From Dastarcus helophoroides (taxonomy: Eukaryota; Arthropoda; Insecta; Coleoptera; Bothrideridae): a stretch of 64,000 nt of DNA. Numbering within the stretch: position 1 is the stretch's first letter; every line of letters begins with the position of its first letter. The notes under the pieces are model-generated. The model ran no database searches. It had not been told where the DNA came from and saw only the letters and a program-made list of their open reading frames with translations. The stretch lies in contig CM053331.1 in the NCBI GenBank assembly GCA_028583605.1, positions 33,494,318 to 33,558,317 of the forward strand, written 5' to 3'. This document shows, piece after piece, positions 2,346-58,550 of this stretch. The position numbers were made by a program, and so were the translations under genes.

Positions 2346-3765
2346 GTTCTAATTTTTTTAAATCGCTTTTAACAATGCTACCGCCTTCGTACAAGACCGT
2401 AAAAAAATAGGGCTCCAACGACAGAATCTCATTAAAAAAATGACAGCAATATAACCTCTTTATTGGGGTAGTTTTAGGGCGTCCGCGTTTCGTCTCGGTT
2501 AATGGCAGTTTTCATCACAGAAGTATTAAATTTTTTTCTATCTCGTAAATCGGGCACGGGTGGGCTGGCATCGTTCCAGGACAAAGTTGTCGAGCGAAAG
2601 GTCGAATTTTGGCCTAACTGCCGCTTATCTAGCAATTCTACCCCTTAGACCACCCACTAAACACAACTTGTGGCTTTTAACCTTTCCGACTTAATTTAAT
2701 AATGGAGTCGGTATGTGTCGTCACGATTGATTTCCAGAACACTGCTACCAAATTTGTCTCATATTAGGGCTATATTTCAATGATGGTATACAAAGATAAA
2801 AAAAACCCAATATCCTAGGGTAGCGGAGATTTCGTCGAATGAAACATTCTAATCTCAATATTCCGGGGGGGCTTAGAGAGTTTCCAATTACGTATTGTAG
2901 CAGGATTACTGGAGCGAAAATTTCAATTACCGTTATGGAATTTTGTGAATTGTTCGCTTAATTGGGAAATTTGCCAATTACCCTCTACCCGGGGCACCGC
3001 GTGGGTTGTTTGCTTTTGTGAAAAAACTTCAGACTTAGCTGAAATTAGTCCTGATCTATGGGATGGATCTCGAAATTTGAGCCACAGAAAACAGGAAAGC
3101 AGTTTTATACGCGAAAGGATTTTAAAATTATCTATATAACTCTGAGGAATCAAGTTTCGATTTTGACTCGGCCTAAACTTTAAGGGATTCGTAGAAAAAA
3201 TTGAGAATTTGAGAAAACTCGAATTTTCGATGGTTTCAAAATTTCGATTTCAATGTTAATATTTTAGAAAAAAGTTTAAACTGCAGAGAAAAACCGAACT
3301 TGGGGGACAAAATTCGTGATTTGTAATAAAAGTATTCTCAAATTTTCGAATTTAAAATATAAACACGAAATTTTTGAGAAAACACTGCAAGCGATGAGGA
3401 GAAGCAGGCGAAGAGCAAAGTGGTGCCTAAAGCGAACACTCCATATTTGAATGTTTAAAACGCTCCAAATAATAAAAAAATTAAAATTATTTAAAGCTAA
3501 CTGAAATTAGAAACGAAATTTCGAGAAATGGGAAGATATTTCGAATTAAATTTGGAAATTTCAAGAAAAAAAATCCAAACTTTGGAATTGGGGTCAAAAT
3601 TTTGAAAAATCAAGCCGAAATATATAGAAAAAAGTCTATGTTTCGAGTTTTGGGTCAAATTTTTAGATAATAAAAGCTAAAATTGTAGGTTTATCCTTAA
3701 AATTTTGGTAAAAACCTCAACATTTCGATAAACAATTTATTGTAATAAAATATGTCAGTTTAACC
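2346..3765. other. Unique DNA grading into AT-rich DNA
   Basis: 2346-3170 is non-repetitive with mixed composition. Its overlapping short open frames on both strands (2923-3153 minus and 2945-3139 plus) are shadows of each other and carry no recognisable motif. From about 3171 the sequence becomes AT-rich, with recurring AAATTTCGA-like words. No gene, tRNA or transposon is identified. Confidence 0.4.
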
Positions 3766-3971
3766 ACAAATGTTTTATGCAAGAAGAATGCAACCTAGAC
3801 TACAAATTCATGCAGCCCTCCAGGCGTGTATAGTGAATCATAGGTAGCTGAACTACCAACAGTTGAAACACTGCCACCTAGCGAAGCGGTTGCTCTCTAG
3901 GAGAGTTCCCAGAAGACAAGGATTCTATAATGCACAGACCAATAGGTTTGAACATTTATTAGATTCGAAGT

Positions 3972-4028
3972 TTGGAAACCAAATACCGGTTTCGATCTTG
4001 TTAGATCTCGTCAGTTTGGTATATCCAA
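3972..4028 (-). ncRNA. Hammerhead ribozyme, type I (locus 1, copy 1)
   Basis: Read on the minus strand, the 57 nt contain in order: outer stem I strand TTGGA (4028-4024), internal loop TAT, inner stem I strand ACCAAA, catalytic CTGACGA (4014-4008), stem II GATCT with loop AACA and AGATC, catalytic GAAA, stem III ACC/GGT with no loop, the cleavage triplet GTA, then TTTGGT, one T and TCCAA, which close stem I. Every conserved core base of the hammerhead family is present, and stems I and II pair perfectly. Stem III (ACCGGT) is self-complementary and cannot form a hairpin alone, so activity probably needs two molecules pairing through it. Known hammerheads with very short stem III act as dimers; applying that here is inference. 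Self-cleavage has not been shown. Confidence 0.9.
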
Positions 4029-4348
4029 CTCGAATGCTAATAAATGTTCCGACAAGTAAGTACTAAAACATTCACAGGCGTCGAGCGAGTGACTTTTTAG
4101 TACTACCACCTATTGGTCCATAGAGAAACTATGGCCATCGCCAACAATGTCGTATGCAAGAAGAATGCAACCTAGACTACAAATTCATGCAGCCCTCCAG
4201 GCGTGTATAGTGAATCATAGGTAGCTGAACTACCAACAGTTGAAACACTGCCACCTAGCGAAGCGGTTGCTCTCTAGGAGAGTTCCCAGAAGACAAGGAT
4301 TCTATAATGCACAGACCAATAGGTTTGAACATTTATTAGATTCGAAGT

Positions 4349-4405
4349 TTGGAAACCAAATACCGGTTTCGATCTTGTTAGATCTCGTCAGTTTGGTATA
4401 TCCAA
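4349..4405 (-). ncRNA. Hammerhead ribozyme, type I (locus 1, copy 2)
   Basis: This copy lies exactly 377 bp downstream of the first and has the same core (CTGACGA, GATCT/AGATC, GAAA, ACCGGTA) and the same stem I strands. Cleavage at this copy and copy 1 would release a 377-nt minus-strand RNA. The two copies form a tandem dimer, the arrangement expected for rolling-circle-like or tandem-transcript processing. Confidence 0.9.
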
Positions 4406-4600
4406 CTCGAATGCTAATAAATGTTTCGACAAGTAAGTACTAAAACATTCACAGGCGTAGAGCGAGTGACTTTTTAGTACTACCACCTATTGGTGACTTT
4501 TTAGTACTACCACCTATTGGTGGTAGTACTAAAAAGTCACTCGCTCTACGCCTGTGAATGTTTTAGTACTTACTTGTCGGAACATTTATTAGCATTCGAG

Positions 4601-4657
4601 TTGGATATACCAAACTGACGAGATCTAACAAGATCGAAACCGGTATTTGGTTTCCAA
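4601..4657 (+). ncRNA. Hammerhead ribozyme, type I (locus 1, copy 3, inverted)
   Basis: This copy is in the right arm of the palindrome. On the plus strand: TTGGA 4601-4605, ACCAAA 4609-4614, CTGACGA 4615-4621, stem II 4622-4626 and 4631-4635 around loop 4627-4630, GAAA 4636-4639, stem III 4639-4641 with 4642-4644, A4645 at the cleavage position, TTTGGT 4646-4651 and TCCAA 4653-4657. The predicted cut is between 4645 and 4646. It faces copy 2 head to head, so a transcript through the whole element would pair with itself. Confidence 0.9.
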
Positions 4658-4977
4658 ACTTCGAATCTAATAAATGTTCAAACCTATTGGTCTGTGCATT
4701 ATAGAATCCTTGTCTTCTGGGAACTCTCCTAGAGAGCAGCCGCTTCGCTAGGTGGCAGTGTTTCAACTGTTGGTAGTTCAGCTACCTATGATTCACTATA
4801 CACGCCTGGAGGGCTGCATGAATTTGTAGTCTAGGTTGCATTCTTCTTGCATACGACATTGTTGGCGATGGCCATAGTTTCTCTATGGACCAATAGGTGG
4901 TAGTACTAAAAAGTCACTCGCTCGACGCCTGTGAATGTTTTAGTACTTACTTGTCGGAACATTTATTAGCATTCGAG

Positions 4978-5034
4978 TTGGATATACCAAACTGACGAGA
5001 TCTAACAAGATCGAAACCGGTATTTGGTTTCCAA
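4978..5034 (+). ncRNA. Hammerhead ribozyme, type I (locus 1, copy 4, inverted)
   Basis: This is identical in core to copy 3 and exactly 377 bp downstream, with CTGACGA at 4992-4998. The predicted cut lies between 5022 and 5023, so plus-strand cleavage at copies 3 and 4 would release RNA 4646-5022, again 377 nt. Confidence 0.9.
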
Positions 5035-5094
5035 ACTTCGAATCTAATAAATGTTCAAACCTATTGGTCTGTGCATTATAGGACAAATGTTTTA

Positions 5095-9362: not shown

Positions 9363-9847
9363 ATGGAGTGAGAGTGAGTGAGTGAGTGAGTGAGTGAGTG
9401 AGTGAGTGAGTGAGTGAGTGAGTGAGTGAGTGAGTGAGTGAGTGAGTGAGTGAGTGAGTGAGTGAGTGAGTGAGTGAGTGAGTGAGTGAGTGAGTGAGTG
9501 AGTGAGTGAGTGAGTGAGTGAGTGAGTGAGTGAGTGAGTGAGTGAGTGAGTGAGTGAGTGAGTGAGTGAGTGAGTGAGTGAGTGAGTGAGTGAGTGAGTG
9601 AGTGAGTGAGTGAGTGAGTGAGTGAGTGAGTGAGTGAGTGAGTGAGTGAGTGAGTGAGTGAGTGAGTGAGTGAGTGAGTGAGTGAGTGAGTGAGTGAGTG
9701 AGTGAGTGAGTGAGTGAGTGAGTGAGTGAGTGAGTGAGTGAGTGAGTGAGTGAGTGAGTGAGTGAGTGAGTGAGTGAGTGAGTGAGTGAGTGAGTGAGTG
9801 AGTGAGTGAGTGAGTGAGTGAGTGAGTGAGTGAGTGAGTGAGTGAGT

Positions 9848-9891
<44 letters not shown>
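9363..9891. repeat. GAGT microsatellite followed by GA microsatellite
   Basis: An almost uninterrupted (GAGT)n tract of about 485 bp, on the order of 120 copies, is followed from about 9852 by roughly 40 bp of (GA)n. The tetranucleotide part shows no interruptions after its first few units, which suggests recent expansion, or that its assembled length is approximate. Confidence 0.97.
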
Positions 9892-13150: not shown

Positions 13151-16100
13151 ATAAGTCCATACACACAGGAGTCCATAGGAGAAGAACTGAAATAATGATG
13201 GACCACCAAATAATTTTTTAACAACAGGGTGGACCTTCAAGAGCGCTTTTGTGAATTTTGGAAAATTTTTTGTGACCAAAAAATTGAATTACTGATGATC
13301 TGCTAAATGCCCAACGTTTGAGCTCAAAATTATTTCAATCAGGATCTTCCATGAGAACGTTTGCGAACTTTAAAGAATGAGAAAACAATTGTCAGATGCA
13401 CCACCAAGTACCCAACTTATAGCACAATGTTATTTTGCTTATGATTATTGAGTCTTCAAGAAGAGAATGTTTCGTGGCAAAACAATTTAAATACTGATGA
13501 ACTATCAAATGTCAAAGTTTTAGCTCGAAATTATTTTGATCGGGATGCTCCATAAGAACATTTGCGAATTTTAGGGAATATTTTATGGGAAAATATCTGA
13601 AATTCTGATGAACTACCAAATACTCAACTTTTTAACATAAGATTATTGTTCCGACGGACCTCCAAGACCACATTTGTGAATTTTAGAGAATTTTTCCTGG
13701 CCAAACAATTGAAATACTGATGATTTATTAAATGCCCAAGGTTTTGGCCCAAAATTATTTTGATCAGGATCCTCCATAAGAACATTGGCGAATTTTAGAG
13801 AATGGGAAAACTATTGTCAGATGCACCACCAAGTACCCAACTTTTTAACACAACAAACATTATTTTGCGTATGATTCTCCAATCCTCAAGAAGAGAATCT
13901 TTCGTGGCAAAACAACTTAAATAATGATGAACTACCAAATGTCAAAGTTTTAGTTCGAAATTATTTTGATCAGGATGCTCCATGAGGACATTTGCGAATT
14001 TTAGAGAATATTTCATGGGAAAATAACTATAATACTGATGAGCTGCCAAATACTCAACTTTTTAACATAAGATTATTTTTCTGGCGGACCTCCAAGACCA
14101 CATTTGTGAATTTTAGAGAATTTTTCCTGACCAAACAACTGAAATACTGATGATTTACTAAATGCCCAAGGTTTTGGCTCAAAATTATTTTGATCAGGAT
14201 CCTCCATGAGAACATTGGCGAATTTTAGAGAATGAGAAAACTATTGTCAGATGCACCACCAAATACCCAACTTTTAGCACAATGTTATTTTGCTTATGAT
14301 TATTCAGTCTTCAAGAAGAGAATGTTTCGTGCCAAAACAATTTAAATACTGATGAACTATCAAATGTCAAAGTTTTAGCTCGAAATTATTTTGATCGGGA
14401 TGCTCCATGGAAACATTGCGAATTTTAGGGAATATTTTATGGGAAAATATCTGAAATTCTGATGAACCACCTAATACTCAACTTTTTAACATAAGATTAT
14501 GTTTCCGACGGACCTCCAAGACCACATTTGTGAATTTTAGAGAATTTTTCCTGGCCAAACAATTGAAATACTGATGATTTATTAAATGCCCAAGGTTTTG
14601 GCCCAAAATTATTTTGATCAGGATCCTCCATGAGAACATTGGCGAATTTTAGAGAATGAGAAAACTATTGTCAGATTCACCACCAAGTACCCAACTTTTT
14701 AACATAACATTATTTTGCGTGTGATTCTCCAACCTTCAAGAAGAGAATCTTTCGTGGCAAAACAACTTAAATACTGATGAACTACCAAATGTCAAAGTTT
14801 TAGTTCGAAATTATTTTGATCAGGATGCTCCATGAGAACATTTGCGAATTTTAGAGAATATTTCATGGGAAAATAACTTCAATACTGATGAACTACTAAA
14901 TACTCAACTTTTTAACATAAGATTATTTTTCCAGCGGACCTCCAAGACCACATTTGTGAATTTTAGAGAATTTTTCCTTACCAAACAATTGAAATACTGA
15001 TGATTTACTAAATGCCCAAGGTTTTGGCTCAAAATTATTTTGATTAGGATCCTCCATGAGAACATTTGCGAACTTTAGAGATCGAGAAAACAGTTGTCAG
15101 ATGCACCACCAAATACCCAACTTTTTAACATAACATTATTTTGGGTATGATTCACCAATCTTCTAGAAGATAAGGTTTCGTGGCAAAACAATTGAAATAC
15201 TGATGAACTACCAAATGTCAAAGTTTTAGCTCGAAATTATTTTGATCAGGAAGCTCCATGAGAAAATTTGCGAATTTTAGAGAATATTTCATGGGAAAAT
15301 AACTTCAATACTGATGAACTACCAAATACTCAACTTTTTAACATAAGATTATTTTTCCGACGGACCTCCAAGACCACATTTGTGAATTTTAGAGAATTTT
15401 TCCTGACCAAACAATTGAAATACTAATGATTTACTAAATGCCCAAGGTTTTGGCTGAAAATTATTTTGATCAGGATCCTCCATTGGCGAATTTTAGAGAA
15501 TGGGAAAGCTATTGCACCACCAAATACCCAACTGTTTAACATAACATTATTTTGGGTATGATTCACCAATCTTCTAGAAGATAAGATTTCGTGGCAAAAC
15601 AATTGAAATACTGATGAACTACCAAATGTCAAAGTTTTAGCTCGAAATTATTTTGATCAGGATGCTCCATGAGAACATTTGCGAATTTTAGAGAATATTT
15701 CATGGGAAAATAACTTCAATACTGATGAACTACCAAATACTCAACTTTTTAACATAAGATTATTTTTCCGACGGACCTCCAAGACCACATTTGTGAATTT
15801 TAGAGAATTTTTCCTGACCAAACAATTGAAATACTAATGATTTACTAAATGCCCAAGGTTTTGGCTCAAAATTATTTTGATTAGGATCCTCCATGAGAAC
15901 ATTTGCGAACTTTAGAGATCGAGAAAACAGTTGTCAGATGCACCACCAAATACCCAACTTTTTAACATAACATTATTTTGGGTATGATTCACCAATCTTC
16001 TAGAAGATAAGGTTTCGTGGCAAAACAATTGAAATACTGATGAACTACCAAATGTCAAAGTTTTAGCTCGAAATTATTTTGATCAGGAAGCTCCATGAGA

Positions 16101-18190
16101 AAATTTGCGAATTTTAGAGAATATTTCATGGGAAAATAACTTCAATACTGATGAACTACTAAATACTCAACTTTTTAACATAAGATTATTTTTCCGACGG
16201 ACCTCCAAGACCACATTTGTGAATTTTAGAGAATTTTTCCTGACCAAACAATTGAAATACTGATGATTTACTAAATGCCCAAGGTTTTGGCTCAAAATTA
16301 TTTTGATTAGGATCCTCCATGAGAACATTTGCGAACTTTAGAGATCGAGAAAACAGTTGTCAGATGCACCACCAAATACCCAACTTTTTAACATAACATT
16401 ATTTTCGGTATGATTCACCAATCTTCTAGAAGATAAGGTTTCGTGGCAAAACAATTGAAATACTGATGAACTACCAAATGTCAAAGTTTTAGCTCGAAAT
16501 TATTTTGATCAGGAAGCTCCATGAGAAAATTTGCGAATTTTAGAGAATATTTCATGGGAAAATAACTTCAATACTGATGAACTACCAAATACTCAACTTT
16601 TTAACATAAGATTATTGTTCCGACGGACCTCCAAGACCACATTTGTGAATTTTAGAGAATTTTTCCTGGCCAAACAATTGAAATACTGATGATTTATTAA
16701 TGCCCAAGGTTTTGCCCCAAAATTATTTTGATCAGGATCTTCCATGAGAATATTGGCAAATTTTAGAGAATGAGAAAACTATTGTCAGATGCACCACCAA
16801 ATACCCAACTTTTTAACATAACATTATTTTGGGTATGATTCTCCAATCTTCTAGAAGATAAGGTTTCGTGCCAAAACAATTTAAATACTGATGAGCTACC
16901 AAATGTCAAAGTTTTAGCTCGAAATTATTTTGATCAGGAAGCTCTATGAGAACATTTGCGAATTTTGGAGAATATTTTATGGGAAAATAACTTCAATACT
17001 GATGAACTACCAAATACTCAACTTTTTAACATAAGATTATTGTTCCGACGGACCTCCAAGACCACATTTGTGAATTTTAGAGAATTTTTCCTGGCCAAAC
17101 AATTGAAATACTGATGATTTACTAAATGCCCAAGGTTTTGGCTCAAAATTATTTTGATCAGGATCCTCCATGAGAACATTGGCGAATTTTAGAGAATGAG
17201 AAAACTATTGTCAGATGCACCGCCAAGTACCCAACTTTTTAACATAACATTATTTTGCGTATGATTCTCCAATCCTCAAGAAGAGAATCTTTCGTGGCAA
17301 AACAACTTAAATACTGATGAACTACCAAATGTCAAAGTTTTAGTTCGAAATTATTTTGATCAGGATGCTCCATGAGAACATTTGCGAATTTTAGAGAATA
17401 TTTTCATGGGAAAATAGCTTCAAGTACTGATGAACTACCAAATACTCAACTTTTTAACATAAGATTATTTTTCCGGCGGACCTCCTAACAGTATTTTGCG
17501 TATGATTCTCCAGTCTTCAAGAAGATAAAGTTTCGTGGCAAAACAACTTAAATACTGATGAACTACCAAATGTCAAAGTTTTAGTTCGAAATTATTTTGA
17601 TCAGGATGCTCCATGAGAACATTTGCGAATTTTAGAGAATATTTCATGGGAAAACAACTTCAATACTGATGAACTACCAAATACTCAACTTTTTAACATA
17701 AGATTATTTTTCCGACGGACCTCCAAGACCACATTTGTGAATTTTAGAGAATTTTTCCTGACCAAACAATTGAAATACTAATGATTTACTAAATGCCTAA
17801 GGTTTTGGCTCAAAATTATTTTGATCAGGATCCTCCATGAGAACATTGGCGAATTTTAGAGAATGGGAAAACTATTGCACCACCAAATACCCAACTTTTT
17901 AACATAACATTAATTTGGGTATGATTCTCCAATCTTCTAGAAGGTAAGGTTTCGTGGCAAAACAATTTAAATTCTGATAAACTACCAAATGTCAAAGTTT
18001 TAGCTCGAAATCATTTTGATCAGGATACTCTATGAGAAAATTTGCGAATTTTAGAGAAGATTTTATGGGAAAATAATTGCAGTACTGATGAATCATCAAA
18101 AACTCAACTTTTTAGCATCAAATTATTTTGTCTTTGATGTTCCAAAAGGTGTTTTGAATGTTAGAGAATATTTCATACCAAAACAATTGA
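13151..18190. repeat. ~425-bp higher-order satellite, block 1, about 11 copies
   Basis: The landmark GACCACATTTGTGAATTTTA starts near 13676, 14096, 14520, 14946, 15372, 15783, 16209, 16635, 17060 and 17727. Spacing is 411-426 bp except for the last step, where the array holds a shortened unit (around 17490). Each unit is built of related subunits of roughly 100-110 bp that share modules such as TACTGATGAACTACCAAAT, AACTTTTTAACATAA, CTCCATGAGAACATT and GCGAATTTTAGAGAAT. This is a higher-order repeat structure. A second block of the family lies at 48181-55950. Confidence 0.9.
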
Positions 18191-35123: not shown

Positions 35124-35234
35124 ATGGGGTGTTTTGGAAGCAAGGACAAATTGTCCAAGGAAGACATGGACTTTTTAAAATCACACACAAGATATGACGA
35201 GAGCACAATAAAAGAATGGTACAAAGGATTTAAG
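35124..35234 (+). CDS. Neuronal calcium sensor family protein, first coding exon (partial gene)
   Basis: This exon encodes 37 residues starting [15 protein letters not shown] and ending IKEWYKGFK, directly followed by a consensus donor GTGAGT at 35235-35240 (phase 0). The start ATG is chosen because Gly2 with Ser6 gives a canonical N-myristoylation signal, as in this family; an upstream in-frame ATG at 35085 lies before the predicted acceptor and is rejected. The [14 protein letters not shown] segment is the conserved helix that precedes EF-hand 1 in the NCS/recoverin superfamily. NCS proteins are about 190 residues with four EF-hands, bind membranes through the myristoyl group and relay calcium signals, mainly in neurons. 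The EF-hand exons are not recognised in the remaining 29 kb, so the first intron is probably very long or the gene continues outside the window. It is more like the invertebrate NCS-2-type proteins than frequenin; that distinction is tentative. Confidence 0.85.
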
Positions 35235-36889
35235 GTGAGTTGGGGACTAATCTTCCGGAGTTATGTTCATGGGCGGACTAAGCGTACAACATGTTCCACT
35301 ATACAGGGGCCCCAACCAAAAAAGGTGGCCTCGATTTTTACTTTTCAATCATAAAGAATGTTTTGGATCTCTGTGGGGCCTCTGTGTAACGCACAGGAAC
35401 CAGAACAAGGTTAATCCATCCTTGGTCATGTTTAGTGTACACTATCAAAGGATCCTGCGAAACATTTCTCTTCTTTATGAAGGATGTTAATAAATAATGA
35501 ACATATTTCATTGGACAATAACGAACATCAGGAATAAGCTAAACTGTTCAAGTTAAATATTTGCGTTTTGTAAACAGACAGCAATAAATCAAGACACTTA
35601 AACAAAACATAATAAATTATGGCTCTGCTAATAGAGCTCGGGCCTGGAAATGCTGCTATTGGGTTTAAACAACCTTAAATCATAGTGGAGCTAATCGCCA
35701 CGAGGCTCCCCCGCTAATTATTATTCCAAACACAAACAGCCAGGAAGTTTGACTCGAACTTAATTTGTCTTTTATAACTCGCATAACGTGCAAGATTTCA
35801 TTAATGTTGTTGCGAAAGCCATTTTCAACGGAATGAATTACAAGGGGCCATTTCTTTTACGAAATTAACTAACACCCAATAAATTCGAGCCGGGAATATA
35901 GTCGGCTCACAAACTGAACGTTCTTTGAACTTTGGGAAAGCGAATTTACATCCATGGAACATTCGCTTTTAACGTAACTTATCGAGCGCACGATTTGACA
36001 ACTATTTCACCTCTGAATTAAAATACATGTTGGATCTTTTTTTCCTGCCCTTTCAGGTTCTTTTTTTTAAGTTGCGAAATCAGTAATAATTTTTGAGAAA
36101 TATGCAAAAAGAAACGATTTTTTTTTACAAAATTATTTATACTAGAGCACTGAACTAAACACTGTGGCTTATGATTAAGTCCATAGAACCTTCTATGGAC
36201 TTAAATTATAGGTTACGTAATTTATTAAACGTTACTTAAAAATATTTTCGAAAAAGTTTCTGGAATCATTCCGAGTCGAATGACACACAATTTTCGAAGG
36301 AGGCGAACTGAAAATCATAGAAAATTTCTTGACTAGACTACATTGTACTTTCCCAATTCAAAATTTATCCAAATAACCCGAAAAGAAGCTAAAGAAGGAG
36401 CCAACAATTGACTTCAAAGTACACAAAACCGACTTATATCTAATTATCGTTATGACCTCGCAGCAATGTCCAGTCAAGTTTCCATTGTTTAAGGTCGACC
36501 TCGAATCGGGGTAAATTATAAGGTACTAACTAATGCCAGCCACCGTAATATAGGGCACAGTATATAGGTATAAATTGCGTTAGAGAGCGCGAGCCGTCTG
36601 AGTTAGTAACAAATTGCGCTACGTAGTCGTAGTAAACCTCCAGAGAGTTGAAGCGAAATAAGGAGATAAGGAAATTTCGCCGGGAATGTCGCCAAGATCC
36701 AACGTCCTTTTAATCTGGGCGCTGATTACGTTAGGATCTCGTTCCTTTGGCCTTCGCACGTTAAACTTTGAATGCGTTTAAGTTTTGATGGCAATTTTGA
36801 TCCTTCGGTTTTCCAATTTTTATTCTTTTGTTACTTAAAAAAGCTGTTTACTACATTAAGAAAGGTAAATAATTTTTGAAAGACAAATA
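35235..36889. other. Intronic or intergenic unique region
   Basis: This follows the GTGAGT donor of the calcium-sensor exon and is presumably the start of its first coding intron. It is non-repetitive with mixed composition. Short frames at 35263-35490 overlap and show no motif. A GC-rich stretch at about 36540-36740 stands out but I cannot assign it. Confidence 0.5.
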
Positions 36890-48180: not shown

Positions 48181-48451
48181 GGATTTCATAAAAAAACAAC
48201 TGCAACACTGATGAACAAATTATCAACATTTTAGTCCAAAATTCTTTTGCTCAGGATGCTCCATGAGAACATTTGCGAATTTTAGAGATTCCATGAGAAA
48301 ACAATTGCCAGAAAATCCACCAAATACCTAATTTTTTAACATAACATTATTTTGCCTATGATTCCTCAAGAAGAGAATGTTTCGTGGCAAAACAATTGAA
48401 ATACTTCTAATGCACAGACCAATACGTGTGAACATTTATTAGATTCGAAAT

Positions 48452-48508
48452 TTGGAAACCAAATACCGGTTTCGATCTTGTTAGATTTCGTCAGTTTGGT
48501 ATATCCAA
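48452..48508 (-). ncRNA. Hammerhead ribozyme, one stem II base pair lost (locus 2, copy 1)
   Basis: On the minus strand: TTGGA, TAT, ACCAAA, CTGACGA, then AATCT-AACA-AGATC, GAAA, ACCGGTA, TTTGGT, T, TCCAA. The core and stems I and III are intact. The first base pair of stem II is lost (A opposite C instead of G-C), a change known to weaken hammerheads. It is otherwise the same 57-nt fold as locus 1. Confidence 0.8.
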
Positions 48509-48532
48509 CTCGAATGCTAACGAATGTTCGAG

Positions 48533-48589
48533 TTGGATACACCAAACTGACGAGATCTAACAAGATCGAAACCGGTATTTGGTTTCCAA
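48533..48589 (+). ncRNA. Hammerhead ribozyme, type I, intact (locus 2, copy 2)
   Basis: On the plus strand this has the complete core CTGACGA, GATCT-AACA-AGATC, GAAA, ACCGGTA and both stem I segments. The only difference from locus 1 is TAC for TAT in the stem I internal loop. Together with the copy at 48452 it gives one ribozyme on each strand of the element. Confidence 0.88.
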
Positions 48590-51500
48590 ACTTCGAATCT
48601 AATAAATGTTTACACCTATTGGTCTGTGCATTAGAATCCTTGTCTTCTGGGAAATTGTTCCTAGAGAGCAACCGCTTCGCTAGGCGGCAGTGTTTCAACT
48701 GTTGGTAGTTCAGCTACCTATAATTCACTATACACGCCTGGAGGGCTGCATGAATTTGTAGTCTAGGTTGCATTCTACTTGAATTGAAATGGTGATGAAC
48801 TACCAAATGTCTAACATTTTAGTCCAAAATTATTTTGATTGGGATGCTCCATGGGAACTTCTGCGAATTTTAGAAAAGATTTCATGGGAAAACAACTGCA
48901 CTACTGATGAGCTACCACATAACTAACGTTTTAACATAATATTATTTTGCCAATGGACCTCCAAGAGCACATTTGTAAATTTTAGAGAATTTTTCATCAA
49001 CAAACAATAGAAACACTGCTGAACTAGCAAATACCCAACGTTTAGCTCAAAATATTTGCGAATTTTAGAGTTTTCATGGGAAAACAACTGCCATATGAAC
49101 CACCAAAATACCTAACTTTCTAATATAACATTATTTTGTCTGGGATTATCCAAGAAGATAATGTTTCCTGACAAAACAATTGAAATACTGATGAACTACT
49201 GAATGTCTAACAGTTTAACCCAAAATTATTTTGATCGGGATGCTCCATGAGAACATTTTCGAATTTAAGAGAAGGTTTCATGGGGAAACAAGTGCGATAC
49301 CGATAAACCACCTAATAACCAACATTTTAAGATAATATTATTTTGCCTATGGACCACCAAGAGTACATTTGTGAAAACAACTCTAAGATGGACCACCAAA
49401 TACCCAACTTTTTAACATAACGTTTTCTTCAAGAAAAAAATGTTTCGTGACAAAACAGTTGAAATACTGATGCACTATCAAATTTTCAACATTTTAGTCC
49501 AAGATTATTTTGATCAGGATGCTCCATGAGAATATTTGCGAATTTAAGAGAAGGCTTCATGGGAAAACAAGTGTGGTACTGATGAACCACCAAATAACCA
49601 ACCTTTTAACATAATATTATTTTGCGTAGGGACCACCAAGGGTACATTTTTGAATTTTAAAAAATTTTTCGTACACCAACAATTGAAATACTAACGAACT
49701 ACTAAGCGCCCAACGTTTAACCCAAAACATTTGCAAGTTTTAGAGATTTTATGGGAAAACAACTGTAAAACGAACCATCAAATACCCAACTATTGGACAT
49801 AATATTACGTTGCTTCTGATTCCCCAAGAAGAGAATATTTCGTGGCAAAACAATTGAAATTCTGATGAACTACCAAATGCCCAATATTTTAGCTCAAAGT
49901 TATTTTGATTAGGGTGCTCCATGAGAACATTTGCGAATTTAAGAGAAGGTTTCATGGGGAAACAAGTGCAATACCGATGAACCACCAAATTCCCAACTTT
50001 TGAACATAATATTTTTTTGCCTATGCACCACCAAGAGTACATTTGTGAATATTAGAGAATTTTTCGTAAACATAAAATTGAAATGCTGATGAATTACTAA
50101 ACGTTCAACTTTTAGCTCAAAACTTGCGCGTTTTAGAGGTTTCATGGGAAAACAACTGCAAGACGAACCACCAAATACCCAACTATTTGACATAATATTA
50201 CGTTGCTTCTGATTCCCCAAGAAGACAATGTTCCGTGGCAAAACAATTGAAATACTGATGAACTACCAAATGCCCAACATTTTAGCTCAACATTATTTAG
50301 ATTAGGGTGCTCCATGAGAACATTTGCGAATTTAAGGGAAGGTTTCATGGAAAACAAGTGCAGTACTAATAAACCACCAAATAACCAACCTTTTGACATA
50401 ATATTATTTTGCCTATGGACCACCAAGAGTACATTTGTGAATTTTAGAGAATATTTCATGAATAAACAATTGAAATACTGATGCCCAACGTTTAGCCCAA
50501 AACATTTGCGAATTTTAGAGATTTCAAAACAAGTACCAGAAGATGTTTTCTCATGAAATCTTTGAAATGTTTCGTGGCAAAACACCTGAAATATGGATGA
50601 ACTACCAAATGTGCAACATTTTAGCCCAAAGATATTTTGATCAGAATTCTCCATGAGAACATTTACAAATTTTAGAGAAGATTCTATGGGGAAAAAACTG
50701 CAATACTGATGATCAACCACATAAGCAACTTTTTGACATAATATTTGTTTGCCTGTGGACCACCAAGCGTACATTTGTGAATTTTAGAGAATTTTTCGTG
50801 CACCAACAATTGAAATACTAATGATCTACTAAATGCCCAACGTTTAACTCAAAAAATTTGCGAATATTGAAGATTTCATGGGAAAACAACTCTAAGATGA
50901 ACCACCAAATACCCAACTTTTTAACATAACGTTATTTTGCCTGTGATTCTTCAAGAAGAAAATGTTTCGTGGCAAAACAGTTGAAATACTAATAAACTAC
51001 TAAATTTTCAACATTTTAGCCCAAGATTATTTTGATCAGGATGCTCCATGAGAACATTTGTGAATTTAAGAGAAGGTTTCATGGCAAAACAAGTGCAATA
51101 CTGATGAACTACCAAATAACCAACCTTTTAACATAATATTATTTTGCCTATGGACCACCAAGAGTACATTTATGAATTTTAGAGAATATTTCATGAATAA
51201 ACAATTGAAATACTGATGCCCAACGTTTAGCCCAAAACATTTGCGAATTTTAGAGGTTTCAAAACAAGTACCATAAGTTGTTTTCTCATAAAATCTTTGA
51301 AATGTTTCGAGGCAAAACACCTGAAATATGGATGAACTACCAAATGTGCAACATTTTAGCCCAAAGATATTTTGATCAGAATTCTCCATGAGAATATTTG
51401 CAAAATTTAGAGAAGATTTTATGGGGAAAAAACTGCAATACTGATGATCAACCACATAAGCAACTTTTTGACATGATATTTGTTTCCCTGTGGGCCACCA

Positions 51501-54500
51501 AGAGTACATTTGTGAATTTTAAAGAATTTTTCGTGCACCAACAATTGAAATACTAATGCACCAGCAAATTTCCAACATTTTAGCGCCAAATTATTTTTAT
51601 CAGGATCCTCCATGGGGACATATGCAGATTTTAGAGAAGATTTTATGGGAAAACAACTGCAATGCAGATGAATCCCAAAATACCCAACTTTTTAACTTAA
51701 TGCTATTTTGGTTATGAACCTCCAAGGCCACATTTGTGAATTTTAGAGAAGATTTCATGGGAAAACAATTGCAATACTGATGAACCACCAAATACTGAAT
51801 TTTTTAACATAATAACTTTTTGTCTGTTGGCCTCCAAGAGCTCTTTTGAGAATTTCTCATGACCAAACCACTACATATCTAACTTTTTAACATAACATTA
51901 TTTTGACTATGATTTTCAAAGAAGAGAATATTTCGTGGCAAAACAATCGAAATACTGATGAACCAGCAAATTTTCAACATTTTAGCGCCAAATTATTTTT
52001 ATCAGGATCCTCCATGGGACTATATCCAGATTTTAGAGAAGATTTCATGGGAAAACAACTGCAATGCAGATGAATCGCAAAATACCCAACTTAATGCTAT
52101 TTTGGTTATGAACCTCCAAGACCACATTTGTGAATTTTAGAGAAGATTTCATGGGAAAACAATTGCAATATTGAAGAACCACCAAATACTGAATTTTTTA
52201 ACATAATAACATTTTGTCTGTTGGCCTCCAAAAGCTCTTTTGAGAATTTCTCATGACCAAACCACTAAATATCTAACTTTTAAGGTTATTTTGCCTGTGA
52301 TTCTTCAAGAAGAAAATGTTTCGTGGCAAAATAGTTGAAATACTGATGAACTACCAAATTTTCAACATTTTAGCCCAAGGTTATTTTGATCAGGATGCTC
52401 CATGAGAATATTTGCGAATTTAAGACAAGGTTTAATGGGAAAACAAGTGCAGTTCTAATGAACCACCAAATAACCAACCTTTTAACATAATATTATTTTA
52501 TCTATGGACCACCAAGAGTACATTTGTGAATTTTAGAGAATATTTCGTTAATAAACAATTGAAATACAGATGCCCAACGTTTAGCCTAAAACATTTGCGA
52601 ATTTTAGAGATTTCAAAACAAGTACCAGAAATTGTTTTCTCATGAAATCTTTGAAATGTTTGTGGCAAAGCACCTGAAATATGAATGAACTACCAAATGT
52701 GCAACATTTTAGCCCAAAGATATTTTGATCAGAATTCTCCATGAGAACATTTACAAATTTTAGAAAAGATTTACGGGTAAAAAGCTGCAATACTGATGAT
52801 CAACCACATAAGCAACTTTTTGACTTAATATTTGTTTGCCTGTGGACCACCAAGAGTACATTTGTGAATTTTAGAGAATTTTTCGTGCACCAACAATTGA
52901 AATACTGATGAACTACTAAATGCCCAACGTTTAAGTCAAACATTTGCGAATATTAAAGATTTTATGGGAAAACAACTCTAAAATGACCCACCAAATACCC
53001 AACTTTTTAACATAACGTTATTTTGACCATGATTTCCCAAGAAGAGAATGTTTCATGGCAAAACAATTGAAATACTGATGAACTACCGAATGCCCAACAT
53101 TTTAGCTCAAAATTATTTTGATTAGGGTGCTCCATTAGAACATTTGCGAATTTAAGAGAAGGTTTCATGGGAAAACAAGTGCAATACTGATGAACCACCA
53201 AATAACCAACCTTTTAACATAATATTATTTTGCCTATGAACCACCAAGAGTACATTTGTGAATTTTAGATAATATTTCATGAATAAACAATTAAAATACT
53301 GATGCCCAACGTTTAGTCCAAAACATTTGCGAATTTTAGAGATTTGAAAACAAGTACTAGAAGTTGTTTTCTTATGAAATTTTCGAAATGTTTCGTGGCA
53401 AAACACCTGAAATATGGATGAACTACCAAATGTGCAACATTTTAGCCCAAAGATATTTTGATCAGAACTCTTCATGAGAACATTTACAAATTTTAGAGAA
53501 GATTTTATGGGGAAAAAACTGCAACACTGATGATCAACTGCATAAACAACTATTTGACATAATATCTGTTTGCCTGTGGACCACCAAGAATTTATTTGTG
53601 AATTTTAAACAATTTGTCGGGCACCAACAATTGAAATATTAATGAACTACTAAATGCCCAACTTTTAACTCAAAAAATTTACGAATTTTAACGATTTTAT
53701 GGGAAAACAACTCTTAAGATGAACCACCAAATACCCAACTTTTTAAGATAACGTTATTTTGTCTATGATTCTTAAAGAAGAAAATGTTTCGTGGCAAAAC
53801 AATTGAAATACTGATAAACTACTAAATTTTTAACATTTTAGCCCAAGGTTATTTTAATCAGGATGCTCCATGAGAATATTTGCGAATTTAAGGGAAGGTT
53901 TCATGGGAAAACAAGTGCAGTACTGATGAACCACCAAATAACCAACCTTTTAACATAATATTATTTTGCCTATGGACCACCAAGAGTACATTTATGAATT
54001 TTAGAGAATATTTCATGAATAAACAATTGAAATACTGATGCCCAACGTTTAGCCCAAAACATTTGCGAATTTTAGAGGTTTCAAAAGAAGTACCATAAGT
54101 TGTTTTCTCATAAAATCTTTGAAATGTTTCGTGGCAAAACAATTGAAATACTGATAAACTACTAAATTTTTAACATTTTAGCCCAAGGTTATTTTAATCA
54201 GGATGCTCCATGAGAATATTTGCGAATTTAAGGGAAGGTTTCATGGGAAAACAAGTGCAGTACTGATGAACCACCAAATAACCAACCTTTTAACATAATA
54301 TTATTTTGCGTATGGATCACCAAGAATACATTTATGGATTTTAGAGACTTTTTCGTAAACATATAATTGAAATGCTGATGAATTACTAAAGGTCCAACCT
54401 TTAGCTCAAAACATTTGCGTGTTTTAGAGATTTCATGAGACAACAACTGCAAGACGAACCACCAAATACCCATCTATTTGACATAATATTACGTTGCTTC

Positions 54501-55950
54501 TGATTTCCCAAGAAGAGAATGTTTCGTGGCAAAACAATTGAAATTCTGATGAACTACCAAATGCCCAACATTTTAGCTCAAAATTATTTTGATTAGGGTG
54601 CTCCATGAGAACATTTGCAAATTTAAGAGAAGGTTTCATGGGGAAACAAGTGCAATACTGATGAACCATCAAATAACCAACCTTTTAACATAATATTATT
54701 TTGCGTATGGACCACCAAGAGTACATTTGGAAATTTTAGAGCATTTTTCGTAAACATAAAGTTGAAATACTGATGAGTTACTAAAGGTTCAACTTTTAGC
54801 TCAAAACATTTGCGTGTTTTAAAAATTTTATAGGAAAACAACTGCAAGACGAACCACCAAATACCCAACTATTTGACATAATATTACGTTGCTTCTGATT
54901 CCCCAAGAAGAGTATGTTTCGTGGCAAAACAATTGAAATACTGATGAACTATCAAATGCCCAACATTTTAGCTCGAAATTATTTTGATTAGGGTGCTCCA
55001 TGAGAACATTTGCGAATTTAAGAAAAGGTTTCGTGGAAAAAGAAGTGCAATACTGATGAACCACCAAATAGCCAACCTTTTAACATAATATTATTTTACC
55101 TATGGACCACCAAGAGTAAATTTGTGAATTTTAGAGGATTTTTTGTCAACTTAAAGTTGAAATACTGATAAATTACTAAACGTCCAACGTTTAGCTCAAA
55201 ATATTTGCTAATTTTAGAGATTTCATGGGAAAATAGCTGCTGTATGAACCATCAAATACCTAATTTTTTAACATAACATTATTTTGCCTTGAATTATCCA
55301 AGAAGAGAATGTTTAGTGACAAAACAATTGAAATACTGATGAAGTACCAAATGCCCTACATTTTAGTTCAAAATTATTTTGATTGGGGTGCTCCATGAGA
55401 ACATTTGCGAATTTAAGAGAAGGTTTCATGGAGAAACAAGTGCAATTCTGATGAACCACCAAATAACCACTTTTTTAACATAATATTATTTTGCCAAGGG
55501 AACTCCAAGAGCACATTTGTGAATTTTAGAGAATGTTTCATTAACAAACAAGTGACATACTGATGACCTATCAAATACCCAACGTTTAGCCCAAAATATT
55601 TGCGAAGTTTAAAGATTTCATGGGAAAACAACTGCTATATAAACCACCAAATACCTAATTTTTTAACATAATATTATTTTGCCTTGAATTATCCAAGAAG
55701 AGAATGTTTAGTGGCAAAACAATTGAAATACTGATGAACTACTAAATGCCTTAACAGTTTGGCCCAAAATTATTTTAATCAGGATGCTCCATGAGAACAT
55801 TTGAGAATTTAAGAGAAGATTTTATGGGAAAGCAACTTCAAAACTGATGAACCTCCAAATACCTAACTTTTTAAAATTATTTTGTCTTTGGTAGTCCAAG
55901 AGGCATTTATCAATTTTAGAGAAATTTCGTGTCAAAACAATTGAAATATT

Positions 55951-56496: not shown

Positions 56497-58202
56497 TTTT
56501 TTTTAAGTAGAGAAAAATACGTTAGGGATATCTGGGAAGGTACCCAGAGAGTATCGGACTTCCGCTCAAACTACGGGTACCGACAAAAAACCCCTACTTC
56601 TTCGGGCCGGGCCCTTGGCCCCCAATCCCTCCGTCGGAACAGTATAATAGTGCTGGAGCACTATTGTAAGCTGTTTTGCCTGAAACATAAGAAACAAACA
56701 AAACAAAAATTTCCGAAATGGAAGTCGTAGCTTAGAGGACCATCCTTGGTCTCCTAATACTGGTTGGGACGTTTGGATCGTAATCCACTGCCTGCCGAAC
56801 TAGTTCGTTGGGATGCTTTTCCGCTCTCACCATCGCCTTGGAATTAATTTCCCTAAGAAAATCTCTTACCAAAGGTAGTTCAGCTTCCCTATGGAGTTGA
56901 TTGTTTCTTACAAACCATGGAGCGTCCATGGCTCGTCTTAGAAAGACGTTCTGGAATACCTGCAGCTTCTTCATCTGATTATACGTCGCGTGTGACCACG
57001 CTACAGATGCTTAGGTCATCGCTGGTCTTATGATTGATTTGTATAGTAACACTTTAAGTCCAATGGACAGGTTACCATTTCTACCAATCATCGCTTGCAG
57101 CAGTCCCTGGCTTTGGACACTGCATAATCGATGTGTGCCTGGAATGTAAGTCTTTTATCAAGAATTACACCTAAATACTTTGCCTGAAGTCTCCAGTCGA
57201 CGTTTTGCCCATGAACATTTACATGTCCATATGATTGGAGTCTTCTTCGGGTGTCTTGCTTGGGTCTTGTCTGCGTTGACTTGGATTCTTCATTGACCGA
57301 AGTAATCTAGTAGACTGTTGCCTCCTAAAGTCGTCTGGTGACCAACTCTGGACTGTAAAAGTACGCCACCAAAGCTGTGTCTTTCGCATAAGTTGCCAAT
57401 AAGGTGTGGTCGATTGTTGGATTGGTTCTTGGGATGTCTTGTTGTGAACAGAGAATACAGCAGAGGTGACAAGGCAGAACCTTGAGGCACCCCATACTGT
57501 AACCTAAACTGGTTTGATAGTTCCTGTCCCACTATTGCTCTGAATGAGCGTTGGTCCAGGAACGAGCTTACCATTTGAATTATTGTTGGAGGTATTCCAA
57601 ACTGGTGCATCTTGTAGACCAGTACTTGGGGCCAAACTGTGTTAAATGCCTTGGAGATATCGAAGAAAATAGCTCCAACTACCTGAATCCGCTTCATGCG
57701 TTGAGTGATTGTTTCAACCACTCAGCAGCAGGTCTGAGGTAGAGTGCATAGTTGGACCCCAATTGTTCCTTAGGAATGATGTCGCGATCGCCGATGATAT
57801 TCTGCAGACGTTTCCTCAAAATCCTTTCCGCCATCTTACCCAAGTTGGATAAGAAGCTGATTGGCCTGTAATTTTGGGAAAATTTCCCATCCTTACCTGT
57901 CTTAGGAATGACGATAACGTTTGCAGTCTTCCATCTTGCGGGAAAATACCGGTACTTAAACATGGAATTGACCAAAGTATTTGACAGCTTGGTCCGGAAG
58001 AGATTTCAGAGCTTGGTTTGGAATTCCGTCTGGACCTGGAGACTTTTTGACGTTTAGCTTGCGCAAAAAGCTTTGGATTTCCTCCTCGTTAGTCGGTTGG
58101 ATGACGTCGTCACTTCTTCCTGAAGAACTTGAACCTCTTCTTCCACCTCCTCGACGAAGTCTAAGTGCACTTCTTCAAGTGTGGTTGAAAGTTTACATCG
58201 GA
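56497..58202 (-). pseudogene. Jockey-type LINE fragment: reverse transcriptase and C-terminus, frameshifted
   Basis: Read on the minus strand from 58202, landmarks in order are KSPGPDG (58026-58043), the YFPARWKTANVIVIPK block (about 57900-57950), NYRPISFLS, the catalytic-A region DISKAFNTVW (about 57632-57665), YGVPQGSALSPLL (GVPQGS at 57476-57493), YAKD (57379-57390) in place of the catalytic YADD, and a C-terminal APWFVRN segment (about 56903-56927) ending at a stop at 56732. At least three frame changes split these. The 3' UTR follows, ending in a 10-base A tract (plus-strand T run at about 56497-56506). The 5' part (ORF1, endonuclease) is missing, as in typical 5'-truncated LINEs. The lost catalytic Asp and the frameshifts mean it cannot work. 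Motif style places it in the Jockey group. Confidence 0.88.
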
Positions 58203-58550
58203 TTGCATACGACATTGTTGGCGATGGCCATAGTTTTCTCTATGGACTAATAGGTGGCGGTAGTCTTAGAGTCACACGCTTGATTGATTGATTGTTCGTT
58301 GATTTTTTAGTACTTACTTGTCCGAACATTTGTTAGCATTCGAGTTGGATATACCAAACTGACGAAATCTAACAAGATGGAAACTGGTCTGTGGTTTCCA
58401 AACTTCGAATCTAATAAATATTCAAACCTATTGGTCTGTCTGTGCATTAGAATCCTTGTCTTCTGGGAACTTTCGTAGAGAGCACCGCTTCGGATAGGAG
58501 GTGGCCGTGTTTCAACTGTTGGTAGTTCAAGCCACCTATGGATTCACTAT
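58203..58550 (+). mobile_element. Hammerhead-ribozyme element fragment, locus 3
   Basis: The sequence enters the 377-bp unit at TTGCATACGACATTGTTGG and continues in the plus orientation of the locus 1 right arm, through the ribozyme, past TCTGTGCATTAGAATCC, to GATTCACTAT, where homology stops. It is more diverged than the other loci and has small insertions (a GATTGATTGATT run at about 58277, a TCTG duplication at about 58437). It abuts the 5' break of the LINE fragment. No target duplication is visible. Confidence 0.8.
58345..58401 (+). ncRNA. Degenerate hammerhead ribozyme (locus 3)
   Basis: The 57-nt spacing is kept: TTGGA, TAT, ACCAAA, CTGACGA, AATCT-AACA-AGATG, GAAA, then ACTGGTC, TGTGGT, T, TCCAA. 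Stem II has lost its closing base pair, stem III has one G-U pair, stem I has one mismatch, and the cleavage triplet is GTC. The invariant CTGACGA and GAAA remain. It is probably weakly active or inactive. Confidence 0.65.

Follow-up and report, generated by a model that had tools for sequence, protein, structure and literature searches.

Three loci with a 377-bp repeat unit

A non-coding unit of 377 bp with a predicted hammerhead ribozyme was found by BLAST at three loci in the window, which here refers to the whole 64-kb stretch of DNA that was analysed. Locus 1 (3778-5082) and locus 2 (48406-48781) each consist of an antisense left arm and a sense right arm placed head-to-head, and locus 3 (58203-58550, plus strand) is a single sense copy of 348 nt with 86% identity. 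One full unit, bounded by two predicted cleavage sites, covers positions 4646-5022 on the plus strand. Positions on the unit are numbered u1-u377 starting at the predicted cleavage site, with u1 at 4646, and the outer and inner ends of the arms were placed on the unit by exact words.

The left arm of locus 1 (3778-4494, minus strand) is 717 nt long, or 1.9 units, and runs from u206, at a position referred to as site A, back to u244. The right arm (4519-5082, plus strand) is 564 nt long, or 1.5 units, and runs from u251 to a second position, site B, with u59 at 5081 and a last base at 5082 that deviates from the unit. Direct repeats of 300 nt and 193 nt both occur at a spacing of 377 bp, confirming the distance that an initial annotation of this DNA had read from the hammerhead cores in each of the two orientations. 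The inverted arms are 99% complementary over 571 nt, with mismatches at 4 of 570 positions, two of which fall within the palindrome at the junction.

At locus 2, the left arm (48406-48529, minus strand) is 124 nt long and runs from site B back to u312, while the right arm (48527-48781, plus strand) is 255 nt long and runs from u327 to site A (u204). The end at site B was placed at u60 assuming a 2-nt TA deletion, which is also present in the other arm of this locus and in locus 3. Mismatches between these arms were seen at 5 of 107 aligned bases. Locus 3 extends from u202 via the cleavage site to u154. Tandem units were seen at locus 1, and the arms of loci 2 and 3 are each shorter than one unit. 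An nhmmer search of the window with the three loci masked yielded no further copies of the unit with an E-value better than 3.8.

The GC content of the unit is 0.424, compared to 0.257 in the nearby flanks. When folded as a circle, the unit has a predicted energy of -131.1 kcal/mol (z -7.1 versus 100 shuffles), and the reverse strand one of -109.3 kcal/mol. The three ORFs of the element that were submitted to Pfam (72, 102 and 115 amino acids) had no match there, in support of the earlier view that no ORF in the unit looks protein-coding. Since the unit contains no ORF for a reverse transcriptase or a GIY-YIG domain, the 377-bp element would at most be mobilised in trans.

Predicted hammerhead ribozyme copies

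The seven hammerhead copies at three loci that had been proposed, six of them exact or with one lesion, were all recovered. Five are intact, namely the four at locus 1 and one of the two at locus 2. The copies at locus 1 are located at 3961-4032 and, 377 bp from the first, at 4338-4409 on the minus strand, and at 4597-4668 and 4974-5045 on the plus strand, where cleavage is predicted at 4645/4646 and 5022/5023, respectively. Locus 2 contains a copy with a single lesion, by which the stem II end GATCT has become AATCT (48441-48512, minus strand), and a copy with an intact core (48529-48600, plus strand). As judged from its sequence, the copy at locus 3 (58341-58414, plus strand) is degenerate, with several changes that affect stem I and stem II and with GUC in place of GUA. 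The 57-nt core reads TTGGA-TAT-ACCAAA-CTGACGA-GATCT-AACA-AGATC-GAA-ACCGGT-A-TTTGGT-T-TCCAA, and CUGACGA, stem II, GAAA, and UA together with stem I are present in 5 of the 7 copies.

We searched the window with a strict descriptor that specified 5 bp of stem I, CUGANGA, 4 bp of stem II, GAAA and UH. It matched the five intact copies exclusively, and yielded a single match over 100 dinucleotide-shuffled windows. The best of the Rfam hammerhead models, Hammerhead_HH9 (RF02275), matched six of the seven copies. Every copy at locus 1 scored 34.4 bits (E = 1.6e-6), and the copies at locus 2 scored 36.8 bits (E = 8.1e-8) for the one with the intact core and 26.1 bits (E = 2.2e-4) for the one with the stem II lesion, all of which are under the gathering score of 52. 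The covariance check suggested in the initial annotation thus gave strong E-values and failed in part on the scores. A search of the window at the gathering cut-off gave no Rfam matches, and the copy at locus 3 had no match up to an E-value of 1. Taken together, the repeats, the E-values for Hammerhead_HH9 and the descriptor support the proposed retrozyme-like hammerhead unit. Searches for the hammerhead in collections of viral contigs and genome contigs gave no matches.

In the Rfam searches by E-value, several models of miRNAs outscored the hammerhead, with at most 58.2 bits at locus 1 and 62.6 bits at locus 2. All of these matches were under the gathering scores and located on long palindromes, and we dismissed them as chance matches to long hairpins.

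The ribozyme at 4974-5045 is carried on an extended stem I hairpin (4957-5063, plus strand), in which GAACATTTATTAG is predicted to pair with CTAATAAATGTTC. The predicted energy of this 107-nt hairpin is -39.8 kcal/mol (z -8.5), and none of 200 shuffled sequences reached so low. Helix III consists of the palindrome ACCGGU alone, which in the predicted fold is too short for good self-closure, and for this reason the predicted hammerhead likely acts as a dimer. Two copies paired via helix III were estimated to -33.7 kcal/mol, compared to -24.4 kcal/mol for two monomers in the active fold whose helix III is open. Without constraints, the single copy folded into an inactive pairing (-15.9 kcal/mol, with the active monomer at -12.2 kcal/mol). 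The dimer, likewise unconstrained, folded at -34.2 kcal/mol, with the core paired in this structure too. These folding energies take no account of tertiary contacts.

Target-site duplications and an empty site

Locus 1 is flanked by an exact duplication of 12 bp, ACAAATGTTTTA, located at 3766-3777 on the left and at 5083-5094 on the right. Allowing one base of play per side, an 11-mer match at random boundary pairs was obtained in 87 of 200000 trials. The corresponding sequences at locus 2 are AATTGAAATACT at 48394-48405 and AATTGAAATGGT at 48782-48793, which are identical at 10 of 12 positions. No clear target duplication was seen by eye at locus 3.

The flanks of locus 2 consist of satellite sequence, which allowed the insertion to be examined further. 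When the flanks were joined with one copy of the duplication kept, the resulting sequence gave gap-free alignments to six satellite monomers, of 326 nt for five of them and of 325 nt for the other, while additional monomers required gaps. The best of these monomers, at 52939-53264, was 85% identical. As read from these alignments, the joined flanks restore an uninterrupted satellite monomer and represent the empty site, which supports the 12-bp duplication at locus 2 in spite of the two differences between its copies. For locus 1, a search of the window revealed no empty site.

The satellite monomers in the flanks of locus 2 belong to a family that forms two large arrays at 13231-17864 and 49430-55874, with a sub-unit of 112 bp and higher-order units of 394-426 bp.

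Outer ends of the arms

The outer ends of the two inverted loci fall at the same two positions on the unit. Locus 1 ends at u206 on the left and u59 on the right, and locus 2 at u60 on the left and u204 on the right. Judging from these end positions, each of the two sites, A (u204-206) and B (u59-60), served as the left end at one locus and as the right end at the other, and the corresponding ends of the two loci differ by 1-2 nt. When four ends were placed at random in simulations, they agreed to within 6 nt in 2314 of 1000000 trials; this limit of 6 nt was chosen once the ends were known. The sample is small, and the shared ends of the two inverted loci could also come from shared descent. 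Locus 3 has one end beside site A (u202) and one that differs from site B (u154).

The distance from A to B along the unit is about 145 nt. In the predicted circular fold, u49-53 is paired with u203-207, and by this model the two sites would represent the two strands of one helix region and be placed close together.

The target site at 3764-3777 of locus 1 is similar to u207-220, just downstream of site A. The similarity is strong enough for repeat finders to stretch the left arm to 3764-3769, and may reflect annealing of the primer to the RNA.

The RNA template

The predicted cleavage site is crossed by each of the five arms and is the end of none, and hence the cleaved linear monomer was not the template. 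To examine the variation among units, we compared unit to unit at locus 1, using 340 positions of the left arm and 193 of the right arm. A single unit-to-unit difference was common to both arms: position u279 is T in the inner units and G in the outer units, in register in the two arms. Since this variant is shared in register and every copy spans the cleavage site, an uncleaved tandem RNA of at least two non-identical units is the more likely template, as far as the sequences suggest, rather than a circle of 377 nt. The pattern at u279 might also have arisen through gene conversion between the two arms, or through one arm having served as template for the other.

Alternatively, LINE or Penelope-like machinery might have made the copies by reverse transcription of a circular RNA of 377 nt, in line with the published model for the retrozyme life cycle, in which circles are proposed as templates (PMC7229834). 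Arms that cross the cleavage site and do not end there are equally expected from a circle, and the compact circular fold of the unit (-131.1 kcal/mol, z -7.1) is consistent with such a molecule. A monomer circle should, however, yield identical units, whereas u279 differs between the inner and outer units in both arms. Furthermore, the two cDNA stops are separated on the unit by 7 nt at locus 1 and by 15 nt at locus 2, which is more suggestive of a shared 5' end of the RNA, or of a hairpin, than of free rolling. In view of u279, we rank the circle below the uncleaved multimer, and consider it an unlikely template for these insertions. The initial annotation had proposed that cleavage would free a 377-nt RNA which could be ligated to a circle; as the mobile form, this circle finds no support at the loci studied here, since the in-register variant suggests that the template held at least two units.

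Inner junctions

The two arms overlap by 3 nt at each inner junction, with GGT at 4519-4521 in locus 1 and TTC at 48527-48529 in locus 2, and both junctions are short palindromes. The junction of locus 1 (4493-4521) is a repeat of 4466-4494 at an offset of 27 bp that ends in the GGT overlap, and forms a palindrome with a TATT loop.

Such palindromes with 3-nt overlaps would also be expected if a nascent cDNA had snapped back at a self-complementary stretch of 3 nt and served as its own template, giving a head-to-head pair. Self-priming is among the explanations put forward for inverted Penelope copies (PMC3846280), and it would account for the shared u279 variant at locus 1. We set this explanation aside because of the arm lengths at locus 2, where the sense arm, at 255 nt, has about twice the length of the antisense arm (124 nt) and is collinear with the unit beyond it, which is hard to obtain from one self-copied strand. 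The differences at 5 of 107 bases between these arms also speak against it, although some may be later mutations, and we consider self-copying to be unlikely. Even less credible, and in our view very improbable, is a foldback or MITE-like DNA transposon that carries a hammerhead-like hairpin by chance: it would explain the long inverted repeats, short length, lack of a recognisable ORF and flanking duplications, but not that locus 3 lacks inverted arms and consists of one sense copy, that arm lengths and inner ends vary between loci, that tandem 377-bp units occur inside an arm, or that the duplications of 12 bp exceed the usual length for DNA transposons. The preferred reading of the head-to-head pairs is that of two cDNAs probably copied from an uncleaved multimer.

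Comparison with known elements

Metazoan non-LTR retrozymes are described in PMC7229834 as elements of 170-400 nt with type I hammerheads and long target duplications. Five features were compared, namely a hammerhead core, tandem units of about 150-450 bp, a GC content below 50%, no coding ORF and duplications longer than 4 bp, and all five were found in the 377-bp family. In accordance with that description, the hammerhead is of type I, the tandem units are a few hundred bp in size and have a GC content below 50%, there is no recognisable ORF, the duplications exceed 4 bp (12 bp at loci 1 and 2) and the RNA is predicted to be highly self-paired. In contrast to these elements, loci 1 and 2 of the three are inverted pairs arranged head-to-head, with outer ends in common, the template looks like an uncleaved multimer rather than a circle, and helix III is limited to ACCGGU, whereas longer helices are given as typical of invertebrate hammerheads in PMC7229834. 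The word "inverted" is absent from the main text of that paper.

The head-to-head arrangement has counterparts in Penelope-like elements. Head-to-head inverted copies of Penelope in Adineta vaga are reported with palindromic junctions and with duplications of 8, 9 and 10 bp, some copies being without duplications (PMC3846280). The Poseidon protein of Anolis cuts and extends both strands and uses two fixed internal start sites, which bound a tail of 30-40 bp; it prefers AT-rich DNA, and ribozyme cleavage is dispensable in vitro (PMC11167929). The loci studied here resemble the elements described in these two papers in the head-to-head copies, palindromic junctions and target duplications, as well as in AT-rich targets, a minimal hammerhead and the fixed internal start sites on both strands that the end positions of the two inverted loci suggest. 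They differ in that the unit is only 377 bp and lacks an ORF for reverse transcriptase or GIY-YIG, in the 12-bp size of the duplications, and in the spacing between sites A and B, which is about 145 nt as compared to 30-40 bp in Anolis Poseidon.

The hammerhead repeats of newt and axolotl, as presented in PMC7229834, have units of about 330-350 nt and a short helix III and cleave best as dimers. The unit size and the short helix III are similar here, and a preference for dimers is predicted. The axolotl numbers are of another order, with 126,247 motifs stated in the same source as compared to three dispersed insertions in one window. Plant LTR retrozymes are likewise non-autonomous units with hammerheads, from which the 377-bp units differ since the plant elements have type III hammerheads, LTRs and 4-bp duplications according to PMC7761336 and PMC7229834.

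No description of head-to-head retrozyme insertions was found among the titles and abstract openings of the literature searched. The element itself fits known retrozymes, and what is new is the arrangement, with antisense-sense pairs, 12-bp duplications and shared outer ends. The hammerhead and the 377-bp unit of the initial annotation still stand, while the 12-bp duplications, shared ends, microhomology at the junctions and very short helix III had been overlooked.

Proposed mode of insertion

We consider it likely that the 377-bp family is a non-autonomous metazoan retrozyme with a predicted type I hammerhead, and that it was probably inserted by a Penelope-like reverse transcriptase. The tandem units would be transcribed and an AT-rich target cut on both strands, about 12 nt apart. 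Each 3' end of the target would prime DNA synthesis on the RNA at site A or B, and the two cDNAs would meet and join via 3 nt, producing the antisense-sense arrangement. Multimeric RNA would be processed into monomers of 377 nt, and perhaps circles, by the ribozyme, for which two copies are probably required to form helix III. The RNA that was copied at these loci was probably uncleaved. Against this explanation, the Rfam scores are under the gathering score at the six matched copies and locus 3 is unmatched, the unconstrained ribozyme folds are predicted to be inactive, and locus 3 is without a clear duplication and has one different end, at u154. In addition, the ORFs tested gave no GIY-YIG match, the spacing of sites A and B departs from that of the Anolis start sites, and the inverted loci number just two.

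This is of interest for two questions, namely the identity of the enzyme that mobilises animal retrozymes and the role of circles as templates. Cervera and de la Pena (2020) proposed circRNA templates and named Penelope-like elements as a strong candidate for mobilisation, and with regard to the enzyme the text of that paper goes no further than this candidate (PMC7229834). The loci tie a retrozyme to the insertion style of Penelope and argue against a monomer circle as template. More tentatively, they might be footprints of how animal retrozymes move in general, with a Penelope-type enzyme that makes cuts in the two target strands at a distance of 12 nt, initiates DNA synthesis on the folded retrozyme RNA at two fixed sites close to each other, and copies uncleaved multimers head-to-head. 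The circle would then be a by-product and not an intermediate in transposition, a generalisation that we put forward as a possibility with less than even confidence.

Other features of the window

We tested 12 distinct ORFs out of 75 that remained after filtering of the 278 ORFs of at least 55 amino acids in the window, and found no Pfam match to GIY-YIG among them. The sole reverse transcriptase among the ORFs tested was a LINE-like RVT_1 remnant. This broken remnant (56735-58174, minus strand) adjoins locus 3 and matched RVT_1 at 57290-57721 (E = 6.8e-13) and, under the curated cut-off, at 57697-58005 (E = 5.3e-4). A protein search with its sequence gave one match, to an unnamed protein of 115 amino acids with 44% identity. 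A scan for words typical of GIY-YIG and of calcium sensors yielded one GIY-like word next to stop codons and nothing usable.

The segment at 35127-35237 (plus strand) is likely the first exon of a neuronal calcium sensor protein; it had no match in Pfam, and its only match in the PDB was NCS-1 (E = 5.3e-4). This exon points to an animal as the likely source of the DNA, for which the LINE-like remnant is not diagnostic; a Caenorhabditis-type nematode, at first considered on account of the repeats, was dropped. Two simple tandem arrays were also observed. One is located at 5-338 and contains about 21 copies of the 16-bp sequence GGTTAATCGACGTTCC, and the other is a (GAGT)n array at 9372-9890 with about 130 copies and 99% matches.
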